64,000 bases of DNA from Epilithonimonas sp. JDS (GTDB lineage: Bacteria; Bacteroidota; Bacteroidia; Flavobacteriales; Weeksellaceae), in NCBI RefSeq assembly GCF_021261315.1, contig NZ_JAJSAX010000002.1, forward strand, positions 434,001 through 498,000, given 5' to 3'. Positions 8,541-49,540 of the stretch are shown here, piece by piece. A model generated the notes under the pieces. That model had not been told where the DNA came from. It did not search any database and worked only from the letters and a program-made list of their open reading frames with translations. Each line of letters begins with the position of its first letter. The stretch's first letter is position 1. The position numbers were made by a program, and so were the translations under genes.

Positions 8541-8638
8541 TTACAACTTCGTTTTTTAATAAGAATATCTATCTTCTCTTTTAACTTTATTTTTTTTAAA
8601 TTTCTTTGATTGACAAATCTTTAATTTATGTCGAAACC

Positions 8639-8747
8639 CATAGCCCCGATTGCAACGGCATCCTTTTTTTGTTTTTTGATCAATTTCTTTTTGATGACCA
8701 AACGCCGTAACAAAAAAAGATATAGTGGAAAGCGGGATCAAGCTCCT
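8639..8747 (-). ncRNA. Structured 3'-UTR element, copy 1 (Flavo-1-like)
   Basis: Read on the minus strand, the element starts with AGGAGCT, has TCCCGCT shortly after, then an apical stem CTTTTTTTGTT / AACAAAAAAAG, then GGATGCCGTTGCAATCGGGG ending in GGGGCTA. The outer ends pair as AGCT with GGCT and CCCG with CGGG. It begins 40 bp after the purD stop codon. Four further copies occur in this window, with compensatory changes in the stems. The strand is chosen because every copy follows a minus-strand stop codon. The name is from memory of the Rfam Flavo-1 motif and is unverified. Confidence 0.65.
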
Positions 8748-11056: not shown

Positions 11057-12325
11057 TTAAATCAACATATTAAGGACATCTGGATTATCATTGAGGTAAG
11101 ATTCAAAATAACCGAGTTCTTGCATCCTTTGCTTCAAGCCGTCAAAGTCCAGAGGATTTGAAAGTTCGATTCCGACGATTGCCAATGCAGTTTCTCGCGA
11201 GTTTTTCTTGGTATACTCGAAATGCGTGATGTCGTCGTTTGAGCCGAGGACATTCAGAACGAAATCTTTAAGAGAACCAGGCCGTTGCGGAAATTTGACC
11301 ATAAAATAATGTTTCAGACCATTGTAAAGCAAAGCGCGCTCTTTGATTTCCTCCATTCTCGTAATATCGTTGTTGCTTCCGCTGACGATGCAAACCACAT
11401 TTTTCCCTTTGATTTGATTTCTATATTGTTCTAATGCAGAAATAGAAAGTGCTCCGGCTGGTTCCAAAACAATGGCATCTTTATTATACAATTGCAAAAT
11501 CGTTTCACAAATCTTTCCTTCATCCACAGAAATACAATCTTCCAGTGCAGTTTTACAAATCTCAAAAGTCAAATCGCCTACTCTTTTCACAGCTGCACCA
11601 TCGACAAAACTATCAACTTCTGACAATTCTGTATTAATGTTATTTTCAATGGACAATCTCATCGAAGGTGCACCTTTTGGTTCTACGCCAATCAATTTTG
11701 TTTCTTTTGAAAGTTCCTTGAAGACCGTTGATATTCCTGAAGCCAAACCGCCACCACCAATTGGAATGAAGATGAAATCGATGTTGTCTTTCTGTTGTTC
11801 CAAAATTTCCAAGGCCAAAGTCGCCTGACCTTCGATAATCTGAACATCATCAAAAGGATGAATGAAAGCGGCTCCTGAGGTTTCTGCAAATTGAAAAGCA
11901 GCCGTTTTTGAAGCATCAAAAGTATCGCCGACCAATCTGATTTCGGCGTAATTGCCGCCAAACATTTCAACTTGTTCCAACTTTTGTTTTGGTGTTGTCA
12001 CCGGCATAAAAATCGTTCCTTTGATTTGAAGTTGCTTGCAGGAAAAAGCCACACCTTGCGCGTGATTTCCCGCACTGGCGCAGACTATGCCTTGAGAGAC
12101 TTTGCCTTCATTGAAAAGCGTTTTGATTTTGTTGTAAGCACCTCGCAATTTGTACGACCTCACAGGTTGCAAATCCTCTCTCTTAAGGAAAATATTGGCT
12201 CCAAATTTTTCTGACAATCGTGCATTGTATTGCAAAGGCGTGTAGTTCACGACATTTTCAATACTTTTCCGGGCTTCTTTTACCGCTTCCAGAGTTGGAA
12301 ATATGAGCGTTTCGTTCATCTTCAT
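11057..12325 (-). CDS. ilvA: Threonine dehydratase (biosynthetic)
   Basis: This PLP enzyme deaminates threonine to 2-oxobutyrate, the entry step to isoleucine. The PLP lysine lies in SYKLRGAYNKI, the phosphate-binding loop is GGGGLASGI, and CASAGNHAQGVA is the substrate loop. A single C-terminal ACT-like regulatory domain (about residues 330-422, HYFMVKFPQRPGSLKDFV) indicates the shorter, roughly 420-aa type and likely isoleucine feedback. The gene begins 5 bp after the ModF-like ATPase gene and probably shares its transcript; the ilvEDBNC genes lie upstream across a 361-bp gap. Confidence 0.95.
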   Translation of the reverse strand: MKMNETLIFPTLEAVKEARKSIENVVNYTPLQYNARLSEKFGANIFLKREDLQPVRSYKLRGAYNKIKTLFNEGKVSQGIVCASAGNHAQGVAFSCKQLQIKGTIFMPVTTPKQKLEQVEMFGGNYAEIRLVGDTFDASKTAAFQFAETSGAAFIHPFDDVQIIEGQATLALEILEQQKDNIDFIFIPIGGGGLASGISTVFKELSKETKLIGVEPKGAPSMRLSIENNINTELSEVDSFVDGAAVKRVGDLTFEICKTALEDCISVDEGKICETILQLYNKDAIVLEPAGALSISALEQYRNQIKGKNVVCIVSGSNNDITRMEEIKERALLYNGLKHYFMVKFPQRPGSLKDFVLNVLGSNDDITHFEYTKKNSRETALAIVGIELSNPLDFDGLKQRMQELGYFESYLNDNPDVLNMLI

Positions 12326-12330
12326 TTATA

Positions 12331-13794
12331 TTACAGATTCTTTGATTTAGTTTTAATTTTCGTGGTTCCGTTTTCCAGAACGAGTTTGTGACTTAGTTTT
12401 TTTGGCAACTGTGATTCAAAATGTCCGACATAAATCAACGATTGTCCCTGACTTGCCAAATCATCAATCACCTGATTGAAATATTGTGTCTGTTCATTGT
12501 CCATTCCCTGACAAGGCTCATCCAGAATCAGAAGTTTTGGTTTTTTAATCAATGTTCTAGCAAGTAAAGCCAAGCGTTGCTTTCCGAGTGGTAAAGTGTT
12601 TAACTTTTTATTTTTATCGTCCTTCAAATCGAAAAAATAAAGAATCTGTTCCAACTGTTGCTGTTGGTCAAAACTCAGTTTCTGATACAAACTCATCGAA
12701 TCGAAAAAACCAGACGCAATCGTTTGCCCAACGTTCGCATTCATATCAAAATACCAATGTAACTCGGGCGAAATCATTCCAATTTTTTCTTTGATGTCCC
12801 AAATACTTTCGCCACTTCCCCGCTTCTGTCCGAAAAGATAAATTTCATTGGCGTAAGCTTGTGGATGGTCGCCATTCAGTAAACTCAACAAGGTTGATTT
12901 TCCAGAACCATTATGACCTTGTAACAGCCATTGTTCGCCGGAATTCACTTCCCAATCGATATTTTTCAGGACTTGTTTTTCGTCGTAAAAAATATTGACA
13001 TTTTCAAGTTTGATGAGACTTTCCTGTTTATTTTCCTGATTATTCTGAAGGAAAAATGGAAGTGATTTTGGAATCCTTTCTTCACCTTTTGAAAAGTCTT
13101 TTGGAGAATTTCTGTGAACTAATTTTCCATTTTCTATCTCAACAAAATATTGAACGTTTTCGGGATATTCGTCGTCATTATTAATTAAAATCAGTGTGAC
13201 ATTTTCTTTGATTAAATCATCAAACGCCTGATTCAAAAACTTTCTTGATTTGACATCCAAACCTGTGTAAGGCTGGTCGATAATCAGAACTTGAGGTTTG
13301 AGCCAAAGTGCTTTTAGCAATTGCAACTTTTTATGTTCGCCACTTGAAAGTTCTATCAGTTGTTGATTTCTAAAATTCTCAAATCCAAATGATTCTAAAT
13401 ATGATTCTAATATTCCGAAATCCAAGTTTTCTTCTTTTGCGAAATGATTGAGTTCTGCGGAAACATTTATAGTATCATTTTTTACTTGTTGATTATACCG
13501 CTGTTGGTAGTAAAAATTTCGGTCGCCTTCCAGATTGCTGAACTGAAACCAGTTGGAAACGTACAGAACTTTTTTTGTCAACTTCGATGTTTCATCAAAA
13601 CTGACTTTAACTCTTCCTTCGAAATTTTTGATTTCGCCGGAAATGATTTTGGCTAAAGTTGTTTTTCCGCTTCCACTCAAACCGCCAAGAATCCAACATT
13701 CGCCGGAAGATATTTCCCAGTCGAAATCTTTCAGTACGACTTGGTTGCCGTACTGGAAGTTTAGATTTGAAATTTGGATGACTGGGGTTGACAT
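12331..13794 (-). CDS. Double ABC ATPase, ModF/PhrA-like
   Basis: Two ABC nucleotide-binding domains are fused in 487 aa with no membrane segments. Domain 1 has Walker A GLSGSGKTT, a signature near LSSGEHKKLQLLKAL and Walker B VLIIDQP. Domain 2 has Walker A GHNGSGKST, a weak signature LPLGKQRLALLARTL and Walker B LLILDEP. This architecture matches ModF (PhrA) proteins, whose function is poorly defined. No molybdate transport genes are nearby. The 5-bp gap to ilvA suggests co-transcription, though a functional link to isoleucine synthesis is not implied by the sequence. Confidence 0.8.
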   Translation of the reverse strand: MSTPVIQISNLNFQYGNQVVLKDFDWEISSGECWILGGLSGSGKTTLAKIISGEIKNFEGRVKVSFDETSKLTKKVLYVSNWFQFSNLEGDRNFYYQQRYNQQVKNDTINVSAELNHFAKEENLDFGILESYLESFGFENFRNQQLIELSSGEHKKLQLLKALWLKPQVLIIDQPYTGLDVKSRKFLNQAFDDLIKENVTLILINNDDEYPENVQYFVEIENGKLVHRNSPKDFSKGEERIPKSLPFFLQNNQENKQESLIKLENVNIFYDEKQVLKNIDWEVNSGEQWLLQGHNGSGKSTLLSLLNGDHPQAYANEIYLFGQKRGSGESIWDIKEKIGMISPELHWYFDMNANVGQTIASGFFDSMSLYQKLSFDQQQQLEQILYFFDLKDDKNKKLNTLPLGKQRLALLARTLIKKPKLLILDEPCQGMDNEQTQYFNQVIDDLASQGQSLIYVGHFESQLPKKLSHKLVLENGTTKIKTKSKNL

Positions 13795-14155: not shown

Positions 14156-15637
14156 TTAAACTGTTTTGATTGACTTCATCGCCGTCATTGCCTGACGTAA
14201 TTTTTTACCGACAACCTCAACGGGATGATTTCTCAAGATGTCGTTCACGTGAACCAATTGGGCGTTGTCAACCGACGCATTTTTCCCTTTGTTGAAGTCT
14301 TTTCCGACCAAATCTGTGTCCACCGATTTCATAAAATCCGCCAGCAAAGGTTTGCAGGCCTGGTCGAAAAGGTAACAGCCGTACTCTGCGGTGTCGGAAA
14401 TCACACGGTTCATCTCGAAGAGTTTTTTTCTGGCGATAGTGTTGGCAATCAAAGGCGTTTCGTGAAGCGATTCGTAGTAAGCAGATTCCGGTTTGATGCC
14501 GGCTTCAACCATCGTTTCGAAAGCCAGTTCAACGCCGGCTCTGATGAATGCTGACATCAAAAGATAGTTATCGAAATAGTTCTGTTCATCGATTTTTACA
14601 TCGCCTGCAGGTGTTTTTTCGAAAGCGGTTTCGCCGGTTTCTGCGCGCCATTTCAGGAGGTTTTTGTCGCCGTTTGCCCAGTCTTCCATCATTGTTTTGG
14701 AGAACTCGCCGGAGATGATATCGTCCTGATGTTTTTGGAAAAGCGGACGCATAATGTCTTTCAGTTCCTCAGACAATTCGAAAACTTTCAGTTTTGCAGG
14801 ATTGGAAAGTCTGTCCAACATTCCGCTGACACCGCCGTGTTTAAGGGCTTCTGTGATGACCTCGACGCCGTATTGAACCAATTTGGAAGCGTAACCTGCG
14901 TCGATTCCTTTCTCCACCATTTTATCGAACGAAAGGATAGAACCCGTTTGTAAAAGTCCGCACAAAATGGTTTGTTCGCCCATCAAATCGGACTTCACCT
15001 CAGCTACAAAAGAGGATTTCAAAACGCCGGCTTTGTGACCGCCAGTTCCTACGCAATAAGCTTTTGCTTCTGCCCAGCCTTTGCCTTGCGGGTCATTTTC
15101 GGGATGAACGGCAATCAAGGTTGGAACGCCGAAACCACGCAGATATTCGGCACGAACTTCGGAGCCTGGGCATTTTGGAGCAACCATAATTACGGTGATA
15201 TCTTTACGGATTTGCATCCCTTCTTCTACGATATTGAAACCGTGGGAATAGGACAAGGTTGCGCCTTGTTTCATCAAAGGCTGAACGGCATTGATTACTG
15301 AAGTGTGCTGTTTGTCGGGCGTCAGATTGATGACCAAATCCGCAGTTGGAATCAGTTCTTCATAAGTGCCGACTTTGAAGTTATTTTCGGTCGCATTTTT
15401 CCAGGAATCTCTCTTCTGGTCGATGGCTTCCTGACGTAGTGTGTAGGAAACATCCAGTCCGCTGTCGCGAAGATTCAGGCCTTGATTCAGACCCTGAGCG
15501 CCACATCCTACGACCACGATTTTCTTTCCTTTCAACGCGAAAACACCGTCAGAAAATTCTGAACTTTCCATAAAATCTGCCTGTCCTAACTGATGCAACT
15601 GGTCTCTGAGTGATAAGGTATTGAAATAATTTGTCAT
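14156..15637 (-). CDS. ilvC: Ketol-acid reductoisomerase, class II
   Basis: IlvC isomerises and reduces acetolactate or acetohydroxybutyrate in valine and isoleucine synthesis. The N-terminal Rossmann domain has [20 protein letters not shown], and metal-binding acidic residues lie in the knotted helical domain ([11 protein letters not shown] and a second duplicated half). At 493 aa it is the long class II form, like that of E. coli, rather than the 330-aa class I form. It is the last gene of the ilvEDBNC series, 100 bp after ilvN, and is followed at once by a structured element. Confidence 0.96.
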
Positions 15638-15737: not shown

Positions 15738-16328
15738 TTACATTGTGAAAACGTCGCCTCGTTTGTCCAGGAATTCGTTTTCTACGATTTCGGCAGAAGG
15801 TTCTCTTCGTTCGAACTCGAGAACTTTGTCGTGGATTCCTCGGCTGTTTTTGATGATTGCGATTCTTGCCCCTCGTACAAATTCGATGAGTCCATATTTG
15901 TTGAGTTCTTCGGTCAAGCGGTCGATTTCTTCGCGGTGTCCTGCCGTTTCGAAGACGATATAATCTTGTCGAATTACAACCGTTGATGCGCCGTATTGAC
16001 GAAGCAATCTTTCGACATAAACCTTTTCTGTCACCACACTTGCCGGAACTTTGTAAAGTGCCTGTTCCTGCCAGACAATCTCATCATCTGTGTTGAAATA
16101 GGCTTTCATAATGTCAATCTGCTTCTCGAGTTGTCGGCAAAGTTTTCTTACGACCTCATCATTTTCATTAATGACAATCGTGAATCTGTGAATGCCATCC
16201 ACCTCGGAAGGCGACGTGTTCAGACTTTCGATATTGATTTTTCTTCGAGAGAAAATCCCTGATATTCTGCCGATTAACCCTACAGAATTTTCGGTGTATA
16301 ATGTGATGGTAAATTCTTGTTTTTCCAT
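15738..16328 (-). CDS. ilvN: Acetolactate synthase small (regulatory) subunit
   Basis: The N-terminal ACT domain (MEKQEFTITLYTENSVGLIG, then GIFSRRKINIESLNTSPSE) binds valine for feedback control of the catalytic subunit. The C-terminal ALS_ss_C-like domain follows (to about residue 165), with a variable tail. The length of 196 aa is normal. It lies 90 bp downstream of ilvB. Confidence 0.94.
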   Translation of the reverse strand: MEKQEFTITLYTENSVGLIGRISGIFSRRKINIESLNTSPSEVDGIHRFTIVINENDEVVRKLCRQLEKQIDIMKAYFNTDDEIVWQEQALYKVPASVVTEKVYVERLLRQYGASTVVIRQDYIVFETAGHREEIDRLTEELNKYGLIEFVRGARIAIIKNSRGIHDKVLEFERREPSAEIVENEFLDKRGDVFTM

Positions 16329-16418: not shown

Positions 16419-18161
16419 TTATTTTAAACGAATTTCGGAAACCGATGAACCCTGAGTTACCATTGGGAATACATTATTTTCTTTTCCAACCATTACTTCC
16501 AGAAGATACGCGCCGTCGTGATTCAGCATTGTTTCTAAAGCAGGTTTTAGTTTCTCTCTGTCAGAAATCCTTTGTCCATCGATGTAATAAGCTTTTGCGA
16601 CTGCGACAAAATCCGGACTTGTGATATTCACGAAAGAATAGCGTCTATCATTGAACAATTGTTGCCACTGCCTTACCATTCCCAGAAACTCGTTGTTGAG
16701 AATCATAATTTTGACTTTCGCTCCGAACTGCATAATCGTTCCCAACTCCTGCAAGGTCATTTGGAATCCGCCATCTCCGATAATGGCAACAACTGTTTTT
16801 TCCGGTGCGCCATACCAAGCGCCAATCGCAGCTGGCAAACCAAATCCCATCGTTCCCAAACCACCTGATGTTACGCTAGATTTTGAATGATTGAATTTTG
16901 CATATCGGCACGTGACCATCTGATGTTGACCAACGTCTGTTGCGATGATTGCGTCGCCGTTCGTTAAATCATTCAGAACTTTGACGACCTCTCCCATCGT
17001 CAAAACTTCAGATGTTGGATTGAGTTCTTCCTGGATAACTTCTTTGATTTCGTCTTTTTCCAATTCACGGAATTCATTTAGCCAAGCTGAATGGTCATTT
17101 TCTGTGAGAAGCGCCGTCAACATCGGTAAAGTCTTTTTGCAATTTCCCCAAACCGGAACTGTGGTTTTCACATTTTTATCGATTTCGGCAGGGTCAATAT
17201 CAAGGTGAATGATTTTAGCCTGTTTCGCATATTTGTCCAAACGTCCAGTCACTCGGTCATCGAAACGCATTCCGACCGCAATCAGAACATCGCATTCGTT
17301 TGTCATTAGGTTTGGTGCATAATTGCCGTGCATTCCCAACATTCCGACGTGTAACGGATGAGTGGTTTCCAACGCACTCAATCCCATTACAGTCGCTGCT
17401 GCGGGAAGATTTGTTTTCTCAACAAACGTTTTGAATTCCTCTTCTGCTTTTCCTAAAATCACGCCTTGTCCGAAAATGACAAATGGTTTTTTGGCTTGGT
17501 TAATGAGTTCTGCAGCTTGCTCGATATATTCGTTTCTAATTTCCGGTTCGGGGCGATAACTTCTAATATGATTGCATTTTTTATATCCCAGATATTCGAA
17601 TAATTGTATCTGAGCATTTTTGGTAATGTCAATCAAAACCGGACCTGGACGACCTGTGCTTGCGATGTGAAAAGCCTTGGCAATCGCTTCAGGAATTTCT
17701 GTGGCATCCGTGACTTGGTAATTCCATTTTGTGACTGGCGTTGTGATGTTGATGACATCTGTTTCCTGAAAAGCATCCGTTCCCAAAAGTGAGGCAAAAA
17801 CCTGACCCGTGATGCACACAATCGGATTGCTGTCTATCATTGCATCGGCCAAGCCCGTCACCAAATTCGTAGCGCCCGGACCACTCGTTGCAAACACAAC
17901 GCCTGTTTTCCCAGAAGTTCTCGCAAATCCCTGAGCTGCGTGGATCGCGCCTTGCTCGTGGCGAACCAAAATGTGTTTCAGTTTGTCGGAATAGTCGTAC
18001 AGAGCATCATAGATTGGCATAATGGCACCACCAGGATAACCGAAAATAGTATGTACATTTTCCTGTAACAACGCTTCTAAAACAGCTTTTGAGCCACTGA
18101 TTTCTATCGTTTTCTGAGACTCTGATTCTGTGTTTTTTATTTTTGAAATAGTATCATTCAT
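16419..18161 (-). CDS. ilvB: Acetolactate synthase large (catalytic) subunit
   Basis: This ThDP- and FAD-dependent enzyme condenses pyruvate with pyruvate or 2-oxobutyrate. The N-terminal ThDP domain contains FGYPGGAIMPIYDAL and the catalytic Glu in RHEQGAIHAAQG. The C-terminal domain contains the Mg/ThDP motif IIGDGGFQMTLQEL ending in NNEFLGMVRQWQ. At 580 aa it is full length. It lies 216 bp after ilvD; that gap holds a variant structured element. Confidence 0.96.
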   Translation of the reverse strand: MNDTISKIKNTESESQKTIEISGSKAVLEALLQENVHTIFGYPGGAIMPIYDALYDYSDKLKHILVRHEQGAIHAAQGFARTSGKTGVVFATSGPGATNLVTGLADAMIDSNPIVCITGQVFASLLGTDAFQETDVINITTPVTKWNYQVTDATEIPEAIAKAFHIASTGRPGPVLIDITKNAQIQLFEYLGYKKCNHIRSYRPEPEIRNEYIEQAAELINQAKKPFVIFGQGVILGKAEEEFKTFVEKTNLPAAATVMGLSALETTHPLHVGMLGMHGNYAPNLMTNECDVLIAVGMRFDDRVTGRLDKYAKQAKIIHLDIDPAEIDKNVKTTVPVWGNCKKTLPMLTALLTENDHSAWLNEFRELEKDEIKEVIQEELNPTSEVLTMGEVVKVLNDLTNGDAIIATDVGQHQMVTCRYAKFNHSKSSVTSGGLGTMGFGLPAAIGAWYGAPEKTVVAIIGDGGFQMTLQELGTIMQFGAKVKIMILNNEFLGMVRQWQQLFNDRRYSFVNITSPDFVAVAKAYYIDGQRISDREKLKPALETMLNHDGAYLLEVMVGKENNVFPMVTQGSSVSEIRLK

Positions 18162-18377: not shown

Positions 18378-20063
18378 TTACAAATCGGTGACGCAACCTT
18401 GTGATGCGTCTGCTACAGATTTGGCATATTTGTACAACACTCCACGCTTCACTTTGTAATCTGGTTGCTGGAATTCGGCTTTTCTTTTATTAATTTCTTC
18501 GTCTGAGAGAAGTGCGTTGATGGTGTTTTTTTCGGCATCCAATTCTATCACATCACCATCTTTTATCAAGCCAATCAATCCTCCGGCAAAAGCTTCCGGT
18601 GTGATATGACCGACTACGAAACCGTGCGTCCCTCCGGAAAATCTGCCATCTGTAATCAAGGCTACATTTTTGCCGAGACCGGAACCCATTAAAGCGGAAG
18701 TTGGTTTGAGCATTTCCGGCATTCCGGGTGCGCCTTTAGGACCTTCGTTTTTGATAACGACTACATTTCCTTCTTTGATTTTTTTATCTTCGATGCCTTT
18801 GATGAACTCTTTTTCGCCGTCGAAAACGATGGCTGTACCTTTGAAATAATCGCCTTCTTTGCCTGTAATTTTTGCTACAGAGCCTTTCTCAGCAAGATTT
18901 CCGTACAAAATTCTGATATGTCCTGTCGCTTTGATTGGGTCTTTGATATCGTGAATGATATTTTGTTGTCTATCGATAATCGAAGTGACGTGTTCCAGAT
19001 TTTCAGCAATTGTTTTTCCTGTTACTGTCAAACAATCGCCGTGAAGCAAGCCTAAATCCAAGAGATATTTCATCACCGCTGGAACGCCACCAACGTTATG
19101 AAGGTCTTCCATCAGGTATTTTCCGCTTGGTTTGAGGTCAGCCAAAAATGGTGTTTCATCGCTGATTTTTTGAAAATCATCTAAAGTCAAATTATAGCCG
19201 ATGGACTTTGCGATGGCGATAAAATGGAGAACCGCATTCGTACTTCCACCCAAAATCATAATTAGCCTTAAAGCATTTTCAAAAGCTTTTGGCGTCATTA
19301 TATCGGATGGTTTGATGTCTTTTTCCAAAAGGATTTTGACGTAATGTCCGGCGAACTGGCATTCTTCTTTTTTCTCTTTGCTTAAAGCTGGATAAGATGA
19401 CGAATACGGCAAACTCATTCCCAGTGCTTCGATTGCTGAAGCCATTGTGTTTGCTGTGTACATTCCGCCACACGCACCGGCGCTTGGGCAGGAGTTTTTT
19501 ATCACACCTTTGAAATCTTCGTCAGAAATTTTACCTGCGATTTTGTTTCCCAAAGCTTCGAAAGCCGAAACGATGTTCAAATCCTGACCTTTGTAATGTC
19601 CCGGCGCAATACTTCCGCCATAAACCATTATCGAAGGACGGTCGAGACGAGCCATTGCCATCAAAGAACCCGGCATATTTTTGTCGCAACCCGGAACTGT
19701 GATTAATCCGTCATAATATTGACCGGCACAAACCGCTTCGATGGAATCTGCAATGATATCACGACTTACGAGCGAATAACGCATTCCGTCGGTTCCATTG
19801 GTCATTCCGTCGCTGATTCCGATGGTGTGGAACATTAAGCCAACTAAGTTTTGTTCCTTAACGCCTTTTTTAACGATTTCAGCCAAACCATTCAGGTGCA
19901 TATTGCAAGTGTTGCCGTCGTAGCCCATACTTGCGATTCCAATTTGCGCTTTGTCGAAATCCTCTTCTTCAAAACCAATTCCGTAAAACATTGCCTGAGT
20001 TGCAGGTTGCGTCGGGTCTTTCGTAAGCGTTTTGGAATATTTGTTCAGTTCTACATTACACAT
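18378..20063 (-). CDS. ilvD: Dihydroxy-acid dehydratase
   Basis: IlvD dehydrates the dihydroxy acids of the valine and isoleucine pathways using an Fe-S cluster. The cluster cysteines appear in [10 protein letters not shown] and [26 protein letters not shown] and the C-terminal [16 protein letters not shown] motif are also present. The length of 561 aa is typical. Its start codon overlaps the ilvE stop by 8 bp, indicating translational coupling. Confidence 0.96.
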
Positions 20064-20958
20064 ATTGCAAGTCTGATTTTAAATAAGAATAATCTTCTTC
20101 TAACACCAAATGACGATAAGCTTTCTGAACTTTCGATGCTAAACTCTCTTCCCAGTTCAATTTGAAAGGAACATCATCAAGAGAACCCAATGCCACTATT
20201 TCGGCTGCCGTTCCACAGAAAAAACCGGCGTCTGCACCTTTCATTTCTTCTGGTTTGAAGAATTTTTCCTCGTAAGGAATTCCCAGTTGGTCGCAGATTT
20301 CGAAAACTGTTGCTCTTGTAATTCCTGGAAGGATGCTTCCTTTTGCAGGTGTGAAAAGTTTGCCGTCTCTTTCGAAGAAGATATTAGCGCCGGAACTTTC
20401 GGCTACATTTCCATCAGCATCCAGAACCAAAGCTTCATCGAAACCTTTGTCTTTTGCTTCCTGACAAGCCAAAATCGAGTTTACATAATGACCGCTCACT
20501 TTTGCTTCCACTTTGAAAGCTTTTGGATTTGGACGTTCAAATGATGATGTCATAATTCTCATTTGATTGGCCATATAACCATTGTCCCAATTCCAAACCT
20601 CGATGACGAGATAACTTTTTTGTCCTTTTGACAAGGCCATATTTGGAGAACAAATGACGAGTGGACGAATGTATGCGTTTGATAAATTATTAATTTCCAA
20701 TAATTTGTAAGTTGCTTCCACCATTTCTTCGGTAGAATAATCGAAAGGCATCATCATCGTTTGGGCAGACCTTCTGAGCCTGTCGTAATGTTCTTCCGCT
20801 TTGAAAATTTTGGTTCCGTTCGCGGTTTTATAAGATTTAATCCCTTCGAAAACAGCATATCCGTAGTGTAACGATTGACCATACAAGTCGGTCTTGGCTT
20901 CTTTTGCTTTTACATATTCCCCATCAAAAAAGAGAACACTGTCGTCATTGTAATACAT
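20056..20958 (-). CDS. ilvE: Branched-chain amino acid aminotransferase
   Basis: This class IV PLP aminotransferase carries out the last step of Ile, Leu and Val synthesis. The PLP-binding lysine lies in [18 protein letters not shown], and [16 protein letters not shown] plus [13 protein letters not shown] are class IV signatures. The length of 300 aa is normal. It is the first structural gene of the ilv operon, preceded by a leader peptide and an attenuator-like terminator. Confidence 0.94.
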
Positions 20959-20993: not shown

Positions 20994-21027
20994 GAAAATA
21001 AAAAACCATCCTCGCAGTGAGAATGGT
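20994..21027 (-). terminator. Attenuator terminator upstream of ilvE
   Basis: On the minus strand ACCATTCTC and GAGGATGGT form a 9-bp stem (one G-U pair) with a five-base loop, followed by TTTTTTATTTT. It lies between the leader peptide and ilvE. Its 5' arm is complementary to the segment at 21060-21070, the presumed antiterminator. Confidence 0.8.
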
Positions 21028-21059
21028 CTGTATTATTTCAATTCAATAATTAGTACAAG

Positions 21060-21070
21060 CCATCACTCAC
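21060..21070 (-). promoter_or_regulatory. Presumed antiterminator segment of the ilv leader
   Basis: GTGAGTGATGG (minus strand) overlaps the stop codon of the leader peptide and can pair with CCATTCTCAC at 21017-21026, the 5' arm of the terminator (GTGAG with CTCAC and ATGG with CCAT). A ribosome stalled on the Ile/Leu/Val codons would leave it free; one reaching the stop codon would cover it. Confidence 0.65.
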
Positions 21071-21123
21071 CACCGGAATCCGATAATGACAAGAATGACA
21101 AGAATAATGATTGTGCTATTCAT
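21067..21123 (-). CDS. ilv operon leader peptide
   Basis: The 18-residue peptide MNSTIIILVILVIIGFRW contains ten consecutive branched-chain residues (six Ile, two Leu, two Val). It starts about 20 bp after a TACATTTG promoter box, ends about 40 bp before a rho-independent terminator, and lies upstream of the ilvEDBNC genes. This is the layout of ribosome-mediated transcription attenuation: shortage of charged branched-chain tRNAs would stall the ribosome and favour readthrough. The peptide itself is not expected to have another function. Confidence 0.8.
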   Translation of the reverse strand: MNSTIIILVILVIIGFRW

Positions 21124-21142
21124 CTGTTTGTTTTCAACGGTA

Positions 21143-21150
21143 CAAATGTA
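21143..21150 (-). promoter_or_regulatory. -7 promoter element of the ilv operon
   Basis: TACATTTG on the minus strand matches TAnnTTTG. It is placed about 20 bp before the leader peptide ATG. The -33 region is not clear. Confidence 0.55.
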
Positions 21151-21455: not shown

Positions 21456-22838
21456 TTAAAAATGAACCTGTTGAATTTCTTCTTCAATTTCTTTCGGTGA
21501 TTCTTCCTGAGATTTAATGAAAATCAAAGTAATCAAAGCACCCAACAACATACAAGCACCGCCTACGACAACGTAATCAATGGCCATATTTCCGAAAAGC
21601 TTCGAAACTATTGGTCCTCCAAAAACACCATTGATAATTTGAGGAACGACAATGAAGAAATTGAAAATCCCCATATAAACACCCATTTTTCTTTGTGGAA
21701 TAGCGTCAATCAACATTGCGTAAGGCATCGCCAAAATACTTGCCCAAGCAAAACCTAATCCTACCATCGAAATCCACAGCATCGAAGTATCTTTGATGAA
21801 ATACATCGAAATCAATCCTAAACCTCCACTTGCCAAAGCCAATGCGTGCGTTTGTTTTTTCCCAATCGCTTTAGCAATTGGAGTCAACAAGAATGCAAAT
21901 GGAATCGCAAATAAATTATAAAGACCGAATAAATGTCCAGTCAAATCTCCAGCTTTATTAAACTCAACCGATTTTGTATCTTCTGGTGAAAGTCCAAAAT
22001 GATGCGTTGCCAAAGCACTGGTTGTGAAAACCCACATCGTGAAAAGCGCGAACCAAGAGAAGAATTGTACGATTCCCAATTTCTTCATCAAGTTCGGAAT
22101 ATTTGCAAAATCTCTGAACATATCAGAAAACTTCGAAGGTTCCTCTACCACGTCTTTTCCGCCTTCGAATTCTGCAAACTCTGCTGGAGAATATTCTTTT
22201 GTCGTGAAAATCGTGTACAAAATTGAAACAATCAAAACAGTTGCGCCAACATAAAATGCATAAATAACGTTGTCTGCCACATAACCTTCTGCTGCTACGT
22301 TTGAAACACCTAATTTCGTTAACCAATTTGGCATTTCCGAACCAATCACGGCTCCAACTCCAATCAAAATGGTTTGGATTGAAAAACCTAAAGTTCCCTG
22401 ATGTTTCGGCAACATATCACCCACCAAAGCACGGAAAGGCTCCATTGCAATATTGACAGAAAAGTCCATCATTGCAAGGAAAATTACGGCTAACAACAAA
22501 ACATTTGCAGCAATCATATGTGTTACGGAAGCGGCATTTGGAAGGAGAACCAATCCAATCGCACAGAGAACCGCTCCAATCAAAAAGTAGGGTTTTCTAC
22601 GACCAAGCGGACTCCACGTATTATCGCCCATATGACCAATAATTGGTTGCACAATCAATCCTGTCACTGGTGCCACCAACCAGAACCACGAAAGCTCGTG
22701 AACGTCAGCACCAAGGTTTGCGAGAATACGGCTCGCGTTTCCGTTTTGCAATCCAAATGCCATCTGGATTCCCAAAAATCCCATACTCATATTGATAATC
22801 TGAGCGATGGAAAGATTTGGTTTGACTTTTTTTATCAT
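21456..22838 (-). CDS. MFS sugar transporter (SLC45/GPH-like), probably for maltose or maltodextrin
   Basis: A 12-helix membrane protein of 460 aa. The N-terminus (SMGFLGIQMAFGLQNGNASRI) and the loop GDNTWSPLGRRKPYFL are typical of the SLC45-like MFS transporters found in Bacteroidota maltose loci. It lies downstream of GH13 and GH97 enzymes and the SusC/D genes, so inner-membrane uptake of maltose or short maltodextrins is the natural inference; the direct substrate is not readable. A terminator follows it. Confidence 0.85.
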   Translation of the reverse strand: MIKKVKPNLSIAQIINMSMGFLGIQMAFGLQNGNASRILANLGADVHELSWFWLVAPVTGLIVQPIIGHMGDNTWSPLGRRKPYFLIGAVLCAIGLVLLPNAASVTHMIAANVLLLAVIFLAMMDFSVNIAMEPFRALVGDMLPKHQGTLGFSIQTILIGVGAVIGSEMPNWLTKLGVSNVAAEGYVADNVIYAFYVGATVLIVSILYTIFTTKEYSPAEFAEFEGGKDVVEEPSKFSDMFRDFANIPNLMKKLGIVQFFSWFALFTMWVFTTSALATHHFGLSPEDTKSVEFNKAGDLTGHLFGLYNLFAIPFAFLLTPIAKAIGKKQTHALALASGGLGLISMYFIKDTSMLWISMVGLGFAWASILAMPYAMLIDAIPQRKMGVYMGIFNFFIVVPQIINGVFGGPIVSKLFGNMAIDYVVVGGACMLLGALITLIFIKSQEESPKEIEEEIQQVHF

Positions 22839-26545: not shown

Positions 26546-26643
26546 TTTTTAATCAGTATTCTGTGAACAATTTATTGCTGAATGATGGAAAAAACTTTGT
26601 CAAAGCGTTGAACCTTGACAAAGTTTTGATTGAAGTGGAAACC

Positions 26644-26733
26644 CATAGCCCCGATTGCAGCGGTTACCCCACAGCAAGCCTTGGGAAAAGCTGTGGCGCG
26701 AGGAGTAGTAGCGGAAAGCGGGAAATAGCTCCT
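26644..26733 (-). ncRNA. Structured 3'-UTR element, copy 3 (Flavo-1-like)
   Basis: On the minus strand it begins AGGAGCTATTTCCCGCTT and ends AATCGGGGCTATGGG, as in copies 1, 2 and 4. The apical stem is completely different in sequence (CCACAGC / GCTGTGG), replacing the T/A-rich stem of the other copies while keeping the pairing. It begins 66 bp after the GH97 stop codon. The intervening DNA has two further palindromes (GATTTTCGAAC / GTTCGAAAATC and CCCCTTC / GAAGGGG). Confidence 0.65.
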
Positions 26734-49425: not shown

Positions 49426-49432
49426 GGACATT

Positions 49433-49540
49433 CATAGCCCCGATAGTAGCGGCATCCTTTTTTGTCTTTCGTGAAATGTTCTACTAATGACAAAACGCTG
49501 AAGACAAAAAAGATATAGCGAATAGCGGGATTAAGCTCCT
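49433..49540 (-). ncRNA. Structured 3'-UTR element, copy 4 (Flavo-1-like)
   Basis: On the minus strand it begins AGGAGCTTAATCCCGCT six bases after the AIM24 stop codon and ends CTATCGGGGCTATGA. The apical stem is CTTTTTTGTCTT / AAGACAAAAAAG (12 bp). A rho-independent terminator follows directly, which places the element in the 3' untranslated region and supports the chosen strand. Confidence 0.7.

Follow-up and report, generated by a model that had tools for sequence, protein, structure and literature searches.

Which signal decides whether the ilv genes of Epilithonimonas sp. JDS are transcribed? The question is raised by a short region on the minus strand of a 64,000-nucleotide stretch of DNA (the window), between a transporter-like gene (21456-22838) and a cluster with the order ilvE-ilvD-ilvB-ilvN-ilvC-(ABC)-ilvA (Table 1). 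A sequence-only reading had placed a leader-peptide attenuator here, directly before ilvE, and the NCBIfam assignment of the next gene agrees with that placement. With a probability of roughly 0.9, as judged from modelled folds together with comparison among relatives, the element is a ribosome-mediated transcription attenuator of the ilv operon, in which a ribosome that stalls when isoleucine, leucine or valine runs short very probably turns the ilv genes on.

Table 1. The predicted ilv switch and the genes around it; positions are those of the window.
Feature	Position	Strand	Basis
-7 promoter box TACATTTG (consensus TAnnTTTG)	21150-21143	-	Sequence
Predicted transcription start	21138	-	Box position (-12 to -5) in F. 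psychrophilum (PMC9723704, available part)
Leader peptide ORF MNSTIIILVILVIIGFRW with stop codon	21123-21067	-	Sequence; kept in relatives
Possible protector: leader codons 4-7 with 21066-21060 and 21058-21055; inner hairpin 21089-21067	21055-21114	-	Predicted full-length fold
Antiterminator 5' arm GUGAGUGAUGG, includes leader stop codon	21070-21060	-	Predicted fold
Antiterminator 3' arm CCAUUCUCAC, also terminator 5' arm and part of terminator loop	21026-21017	-	Predicted folds
Intrinsic terminator: 11-bp stem (21029-21003), 5-nt loop, T-rich tail	20995-21029	-	Folding; covariation in relatives
ilvE, branched-chain aminotransferase, first gene downstream of switch, ATG at 20958	20056-20958	-	NCBIfam TIGR01122 above cut-off
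ilvD	18378-20063	-	TIGR00110 above cut-off
ilvB, acetolactate synthase large subunit	16419-18161	-	TIGR00118 above cut-off
ilvN, acetolactate synthase small subunit	15738-16328	-	TIGR00119 above cut-off
ilvC	14156-15637	-	TIGR00465 above cut-off
ABC-type ATPase gene, between ilvC and ilvA	12331-13794	-	
ilvA, threonine ammonia-lyase	11057-12325	-	TIGR02079 above cut-off
Terminator-like hairpin after preceding transporter-like gene (neighbour, outside switch)	21407-21384	-	

The element opens with the promoter box that had been described from its letters. In Flavobacterium psychrophilum this -7 box sits at -12 to -5 relative to the start site, according to the available part of the source (PMC9723704), and the window transcript is therefore predicted to begin at 21138 with a 5' UTR of about 15 nt. 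Inspection by eye revealed no clear -33 element upstream of the window leader. Bacteroidota largely do without Shine-Dalgarno initiation, and no Shine-Dalgarno-like sequence was seen in the predicted 5' UTR. The leader ORF runs from ATG (21123-21121) to TGA (21069-21067) and has 18 codons, with codons 5-14 constituting the claimed ten consecutive Ile/Leu/Val residues. Eighteen residues, which the sequence-only reading calls very short, is nothing unusual for attenuator leader peptides. Between the leader and the first gene lies a predicted intrinsic terminator whose stem is followed by TTTATTTT. A competing pairing of GTGAG(T)GATGG (21070-21060) with CCATTCTCAC (21026-21017), a duplex of -17.4 kcal/mol, is predicted to be exclusive with this terminator and to have its 5' arm hidden when a ribosome stands on the leader stop codon.

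Both structures are more stable than expected by chance, which agrees with the earlier description of a T-tract terminator and a competing fold. Predicted folding energies are -16.8 kcal/mol (z -3.94) for the antiterminator segment and -13.8 kcal/mol (z -4.15) for the terminator, in each case with 0 of 200 shuffles as good. When both strands of the window were scanned in 424 half-overlapping 600-nt pieces for an I/L/V-rich ORF with a T-tract terminator behind it, this module was found together with two other ORFs, neither of which has an I/L/V run longer than two. Dinucleotide shuffling of 126 ilvE upstream regions, five times each, produced a module in 1 of 630 sequences. A chance origin of the module is rejected on the strength of these shuffles and of a window scan that returned no comparable I/L/V run. 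Also rejected, as hardly credible, is a T-box or riboswitch reading tRNA or a metabolite directly; such elements control ilv genes in some Gram-positive bacteria, but no Rfam family reaches its cut-off at the window element, where Phe_leader (RF01859) scores 18.5 bits against a cut-off of 55 and His_leader (RF00514) 16.2 against 49. Across the window the only Rfam family at gathering cut-off is Flavo-1 (RF01705), located elsewhere, with three motifs at 8638-8743, 26643-26729 and 49432-49536 (+).

Conservation of the element is strict within the genus and broad beyond it. The closest named IlvE match is that of E. lactis (99%). An ilvE orthologue is present in 16 of 23 Epilithonimonas genomes searched, the other 7 having no more than a distant paralogue, and all 16 orthologues are preceded by leader, terminator and a TAnnTTTG box 19 nt ahead of the leader ATG. 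The sequence-only reading had named relatives devoid of the codon run or the terminator as evidence against itself; the genus supplies none, and across genera the I/L/V-rich composition is retained as the nucleotide sequence of the leader changes, the pattern it had asked of such a comparison. At family level ilvE was detected at E <= 1e-60 in 104 of 246 genomes. Among the 90 upstream regions examined (the remaining 14 matches lie outside the count), 86 have a suitably placed ORF coding for at least six Ile, Leu or Val residues, one of which (L050) is not credible, and ORF and terminator occur together in 85. The recurrence of a T-tract terminator behind the leader, and the roughly 108 nt separating the leader stop codon from ilvE, both speak against translational control, in which the leader ORF would govern ribosome loading on ilvE; leader and ilvE do share one predicted transcript, but this explanation is very unlikely. 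Outside the family, 10 of 40 ilvD upstream regions have an I/L/V-rich leader and terminator immediately before ilvD (four in genus g35, four in family f35, one each in f23 and f21), and 3 more (family f3) have them some 210-290 nt upstream; in the other 27 the scan found no leader, ilvD not necessarily being the first gene there.

What is held constant in the leader is its run of codons and where that run ends. The peptide varies across relatives (MNSTIIILVILVIIGFRW, MYQLLSVIIIVIIIPLRL, MNLYNNNIIISIIISSPP) and the I/L/V run is kept. Differences among leaders show no clear excess at third codon positions, so that coding constraint rests on composition and frame. Of 116 ilvE-proximal modules, 100 end their final stretch of at least three I/L/V residues 3 or 4 codons ahead of the stop (exactly 4 in 87). 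A sensor of the nascent peptide, or a leader peptide acting in trans like peTrpL of Sinorhizobium as presented in the available text (PMC7298713), would draw on the similarity of peptide ends within clades (IIGFRW, IIIPLRL). Between clades, however, the C-terminal residues differ (GFRW, PLRL, SSPP, RSFE), the constant elements being the I/L/V run and its spacing, and action through the peptide itself is extremely improbable. Codon choice in the leaders is skewed, with GTC for 196 of 354 Val codons and ATT for 991 of 1202 Ile codons (126 distinct regions, uncleaned modules); the corresponding counts in twelve genes of the window are 67 of 345 and 181 of 377. As the leaders are mutually related, this bias is no more than a lead. 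In Chryseobacterium sp. ISL-6 and C. paridis (L135, L136) several hundred additional nucleotides separate the attenuator from ilvE; the attenuator is retained more than 500 nt upstream, and the pair is counted below as one region without a module.

Comparative support for the two competing helices takes different forms. In an alignment (A2) of 29 segments hand-picked from the 126 distinct regions, 28 of them used (L105 left out), the terminator helix is paired in 99.3% of cells and both partners vary in 7 of its 10 pairs; among 500 shuffles, which do not preserve relatedness, none attained either its paired fraction or its covariation score. The antiterminator, taken in the window's register across all clades, shows no excess of covariation (0.166 vs 0.167 shuffled) and slightly higher pairing (67.9% vs 64.9% shuffled); its registers differ between clades in the alignments. 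Scored within each sequence, the antiterminator duplex averages -15.1 kcal/mol vs -8.2 for shuffled arms (n = 106 distinct proximal modules) and -12.2 when arms are exchanged between loci. In 99 of the 106 proximal modules the leader stop codon lies at least partly within this helix. In second modules such overlap occurs in only 20 of 67, the arm there lying inside the ORF.

How ribosome position might select between these folds was modelled by folding the window leader with a ribosome at each codon, the front edge being set 12 nt past the point where the A-site codon starts. Full-length folding predicts the antiterminator with a probability of 0.92-0.98 when the A site is at codons 9-14 (Val, Ile, Leu, Val, Ile, Ile), and the terminator with 0.93-1.00 when the ribosome stands anywhere from codon 15 to the stop (15-19). 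The last Ile codon would thus be the last read-through position, and the predicted switch between codons 14 and 15 agrees with the earlier proposal that the antiterminator overlaps the leader stop and ribosome position decides the fold. With the ribosome at codons 1-8 or absent the terminator is again predicted (0.91-0.99, and 0.99 in the ribosome-free fold), through pairing of leader codons with the antiterminator arm in the possible protector. This outcome tells against the attenuator model in one respect: codons 5-8 also encode Ile/Leu, but the terminator is predicted to persist with a ribosome on them. The protector is absent from folds of RNA truncated before the terminator 3' arm is made. 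In those folds the antiterminator has a probability of 0.84 for ribosome-free window RNA, 0.72-0.89 with the ribosome at codons 1-8 and 0.81 at codon 15, declining to 0.35 when codon 16 is occupied and to 0.00 when the stop is; the two treatments disagree on the ribosome-free state, which makes the protector uncertain.

The same calculations were extended to relatives. Full-length equilibrium folding with a 12-nt edge finds a switch in 32 of 112 proximal modules vs 5 of 336 controls (29 to 35 modules for ribosome edges of 11 to 14 nt), in 3 of 63 second and in 0 of 7 third modules (controls 0 of 189 and 0 of 21). The remaining proximal modules either keep the terminator throughout or change by less than the cut-off, and equilibrium full-length folding is without support as a general test. 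The truncated view considers how far the terminator 5' arm is sequestered while the 3' arm is still missing from the transcript. Numbering modules outward from ilvE, the mean for the first, second and third is 0.75, 0.76 and 0.62 when the ribosome stands on the final codon of the run; it is 0.19, 0.07 and 0.01 once the stop is reached, and 0.60, 0.71 and 0.54 on ribosome-free RNA. Shuffled controls give 0.43, 0.44 and 0.41 at the last run codon and 0.37, 0.29 and 0.14 at the stop. By a fixed cut-off the truncated view detects a switch in 76 of 112, 60 of 63 and 7 of 7 modules, respectively, with controls at 25 of 224, 26 of 126 and 3 of 14.

Comparable leaders stand before other amino acid genes of this genome. 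Upstream of hisG is a His5 leader, MTTQFMHHHHHFLAQTGRS, with a -7 box and terminator (L217, 1162-1297), and upstream of trpE a Trp3 leader, MKTMYNIWWWLSNSLSGLKGLSVF, likewise with a -7 box and terminator (L220 reverse complement, 707-860). The his and trp operons of this genome are probably under ribosome-mediated attenuation as well, and the two leaders support the attenuator reading of the ilv element. The ATG of the trp leader follows its -7 box by about 5 nt. No leader was seen upstream of the leuA-like gene of the same genome (L218). These sibling leaders bear on a further explanation, that the terminator is real, the ORF incidental, and read-through governed by a protein that binds the RNA or simply by a constitutively leaky terminator. 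It draws on the terminator being the structural element with the clearest covariation, leader translation itself being a prediction. Against it stand an I/L/V-rich ORF kept across genera with its run mostly 3 or 4 codons from the stop, a switch point in the full-length fold that coincides with the last Ile codon, and the His and Trp runs of the leaders ahead of hisG and trpE. It is considered unlikely.

Under ribosome-mediated attenuation, RNA polymerase would start about 15 nt ahead of the leader AUG. When charged tRNA-Ile, -Leu and -Val are ample, the ribosome would reach the stop codon and cover the antiterminator 5' arm, whereupon the terminator would form ahead of ilvE. When branched-chain aminoacyl-tRNA is short, the ribosome would stall with one of codons 9-14 in its A site and its front edge short of the GUGAG arm, leaving that arm to capture the terminator 5' arm; transcription would then proceed into ilvE and the genes behind it. 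With no ribosome present, the protector hairpin may hold the antiterminator arm, and this is the least certain step.

A census of ilvE upstream regions suggests that the window holds the simplest version of a more elaborate arrangement. The input comprised 154 regions, 126 of them distinct in the last 400 nt, and included 64 of 71 named loci (L139, with no upstream DNA, and the distant matches L171-L176 were left out). After cleaning, 10 regions have no module, 53 have one, 56 two and 7 three. Six false second modules were dropped, five being the tail of a transporter-like gene with its terminator (L004, L008, L010, L015, L017) and one another ORF (L042); these six are still included in the shuffle, run-spacing and duplex counts given above, the ilvE-proximal figures being unaffected. 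The automatic census misses L046, which the family scan detected, the long leaders of L145 and L146, and a second unit of L168 recognised by eye; the single module it assigns to L134 is not a credible leader. Three regions without a module (L144, L148, L150) have a long ORF directly upstream, isopropylmalate dehydrogenase-like as named by eye. Doubles occur in 40 of 58 regions of g20 (taken as Chryseobacterium), in Kaistella haifensis, Vaginella massiliensis and Winogradskyella epiphytica. Triples (L152, L154, L155, L159, L160, L162, L164), found within 700 nt before ilvE behind one TAnnTTTG-type box, include four Aequorivita species, Bizionia algoritergicola and Brumimicrobium oceani; L161, L163 and L170 look triple as well, their first leader not being accepted by the scan.

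One promoter seems to serve each whole array, since no exact TAnnTTTG box was found between modules in 70 gaps. The distance from the end of the box to the first leader ATG (nearest in-frame ATG allowed) is exactly 4 nt in 34 of 56 doubles, and in 7 of the 56 no box was found. A box in this position puts the ATG at the predicted transcription start, so that the first leader is predicted to be leaderless. In Chryseobacterium (L051-L085 and others) first leaders such as MNFTNQKNIIVISIIAVVISNSKETAF lie about -320 to -270 from ilvE; a leaderless ribosome would enter the first unit there, and the following unit would start internally. In ten triple or likely triple loci, units 2 and 3 are 76-96% identical within a locus, against between-locus means of 82% (unit 2 vs 3), 85% (unit 2 vs 2) and 81% (unit 3 vs 3). 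The within-locus identity exceeds the 82% mean only modestly and fits, weakly, the duplication of a unit, by which the arrays may have grown. As a separate observation, some Chryseobacterium (L032-L041 and named members such as L114, L116 and L117) have an ilvE 82-95% identical to that of the window together with a single-unit leader, and others an ilvE 64-75% identical with a double array; transfer of the whole unit is possible.

The window and the other 15 genus members carry a single module rather than a series. It is likely that the window element is the single-unit form of a system, widespread in Flavobacteriia, in which one promoter is followed by one to three complete leader-peptide attenuators in series, each tuned to branched-chain amino acids. 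Full transcription is proposed to be the product of the read-through probabilities, which would render the starvation response steeper and tighter. The relatives' arrays are natural one-, two- and three-unit versions of one switch, and whether repetition sharpens the response thereby becomes directly testable in common laboratory flavobacteria.

These comparisons provide broad support for classical ribosome-mediated attenuation of ilv in Bacteroidota. As in the enterobacterial ilv, his and trp attenuators, a leader ORF is rich in codons for the pathway product, antiterminator and terminator are mutually exclusive, and the stop codon lies inside an antiterminator arm. The claim that the window element mirrors the enterobacterial ilv attenuators therefore stands as analogy; homology finds no backing, no Rfam leader family reaching its cut-off at the element. 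Unlike its enterobacterial counterparts, the window element also has a Bacteroidota -7 box and a predicted 15-nt 5' UTR with no Shine-Dalgarno-like sequence seen, and its cluster begins with ilvE. A comparative study by Vitreschak et al. in 2004 is said to have predicted classical attenuators for amino-acid operons in Bacteroidetes/Chlorobi. In F. psychrophilum, strong clues for leader-peptide attenuation ahead of amino-acid biosynthesis operons have been described, in a summary-level statement with the operons unspecified, for the same phylum and the same proposed mechanism as in the window (PMC9723704). The window element belongs to this class already noted in flavobacteria, and the two accounts together make it an attenuator of an already known kind. 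The available text on Bacteroides thetaiotaomicron, of the same phylum, likewise describes leader-peptide-like short ORFs within long 5' UTRs and likens them to attenuation (PMC7366714); its example is the UTR of a hypothetical protein, unlike the amino-acid operon of the window. Serial leader-peptide attenuators responding to the same signal were not recognised among the literature matches listed, mainly openly available texts, a scope too narrow to prove absence. The mgtCBR operon of Salmonella, as far as the available text extends, has tandem attenuators with two short ORFs in one leader mRNA that respond to ATP and proline (PMC3641672). It resembles the relatives' arrays in placing two short ORFs with attenuator-like control in a single leader mRNA, and differs in that mgtCBR reads two different signals, whereas the arrays repeat the same branched-chain codons in up to three leader-plus-terminator units.
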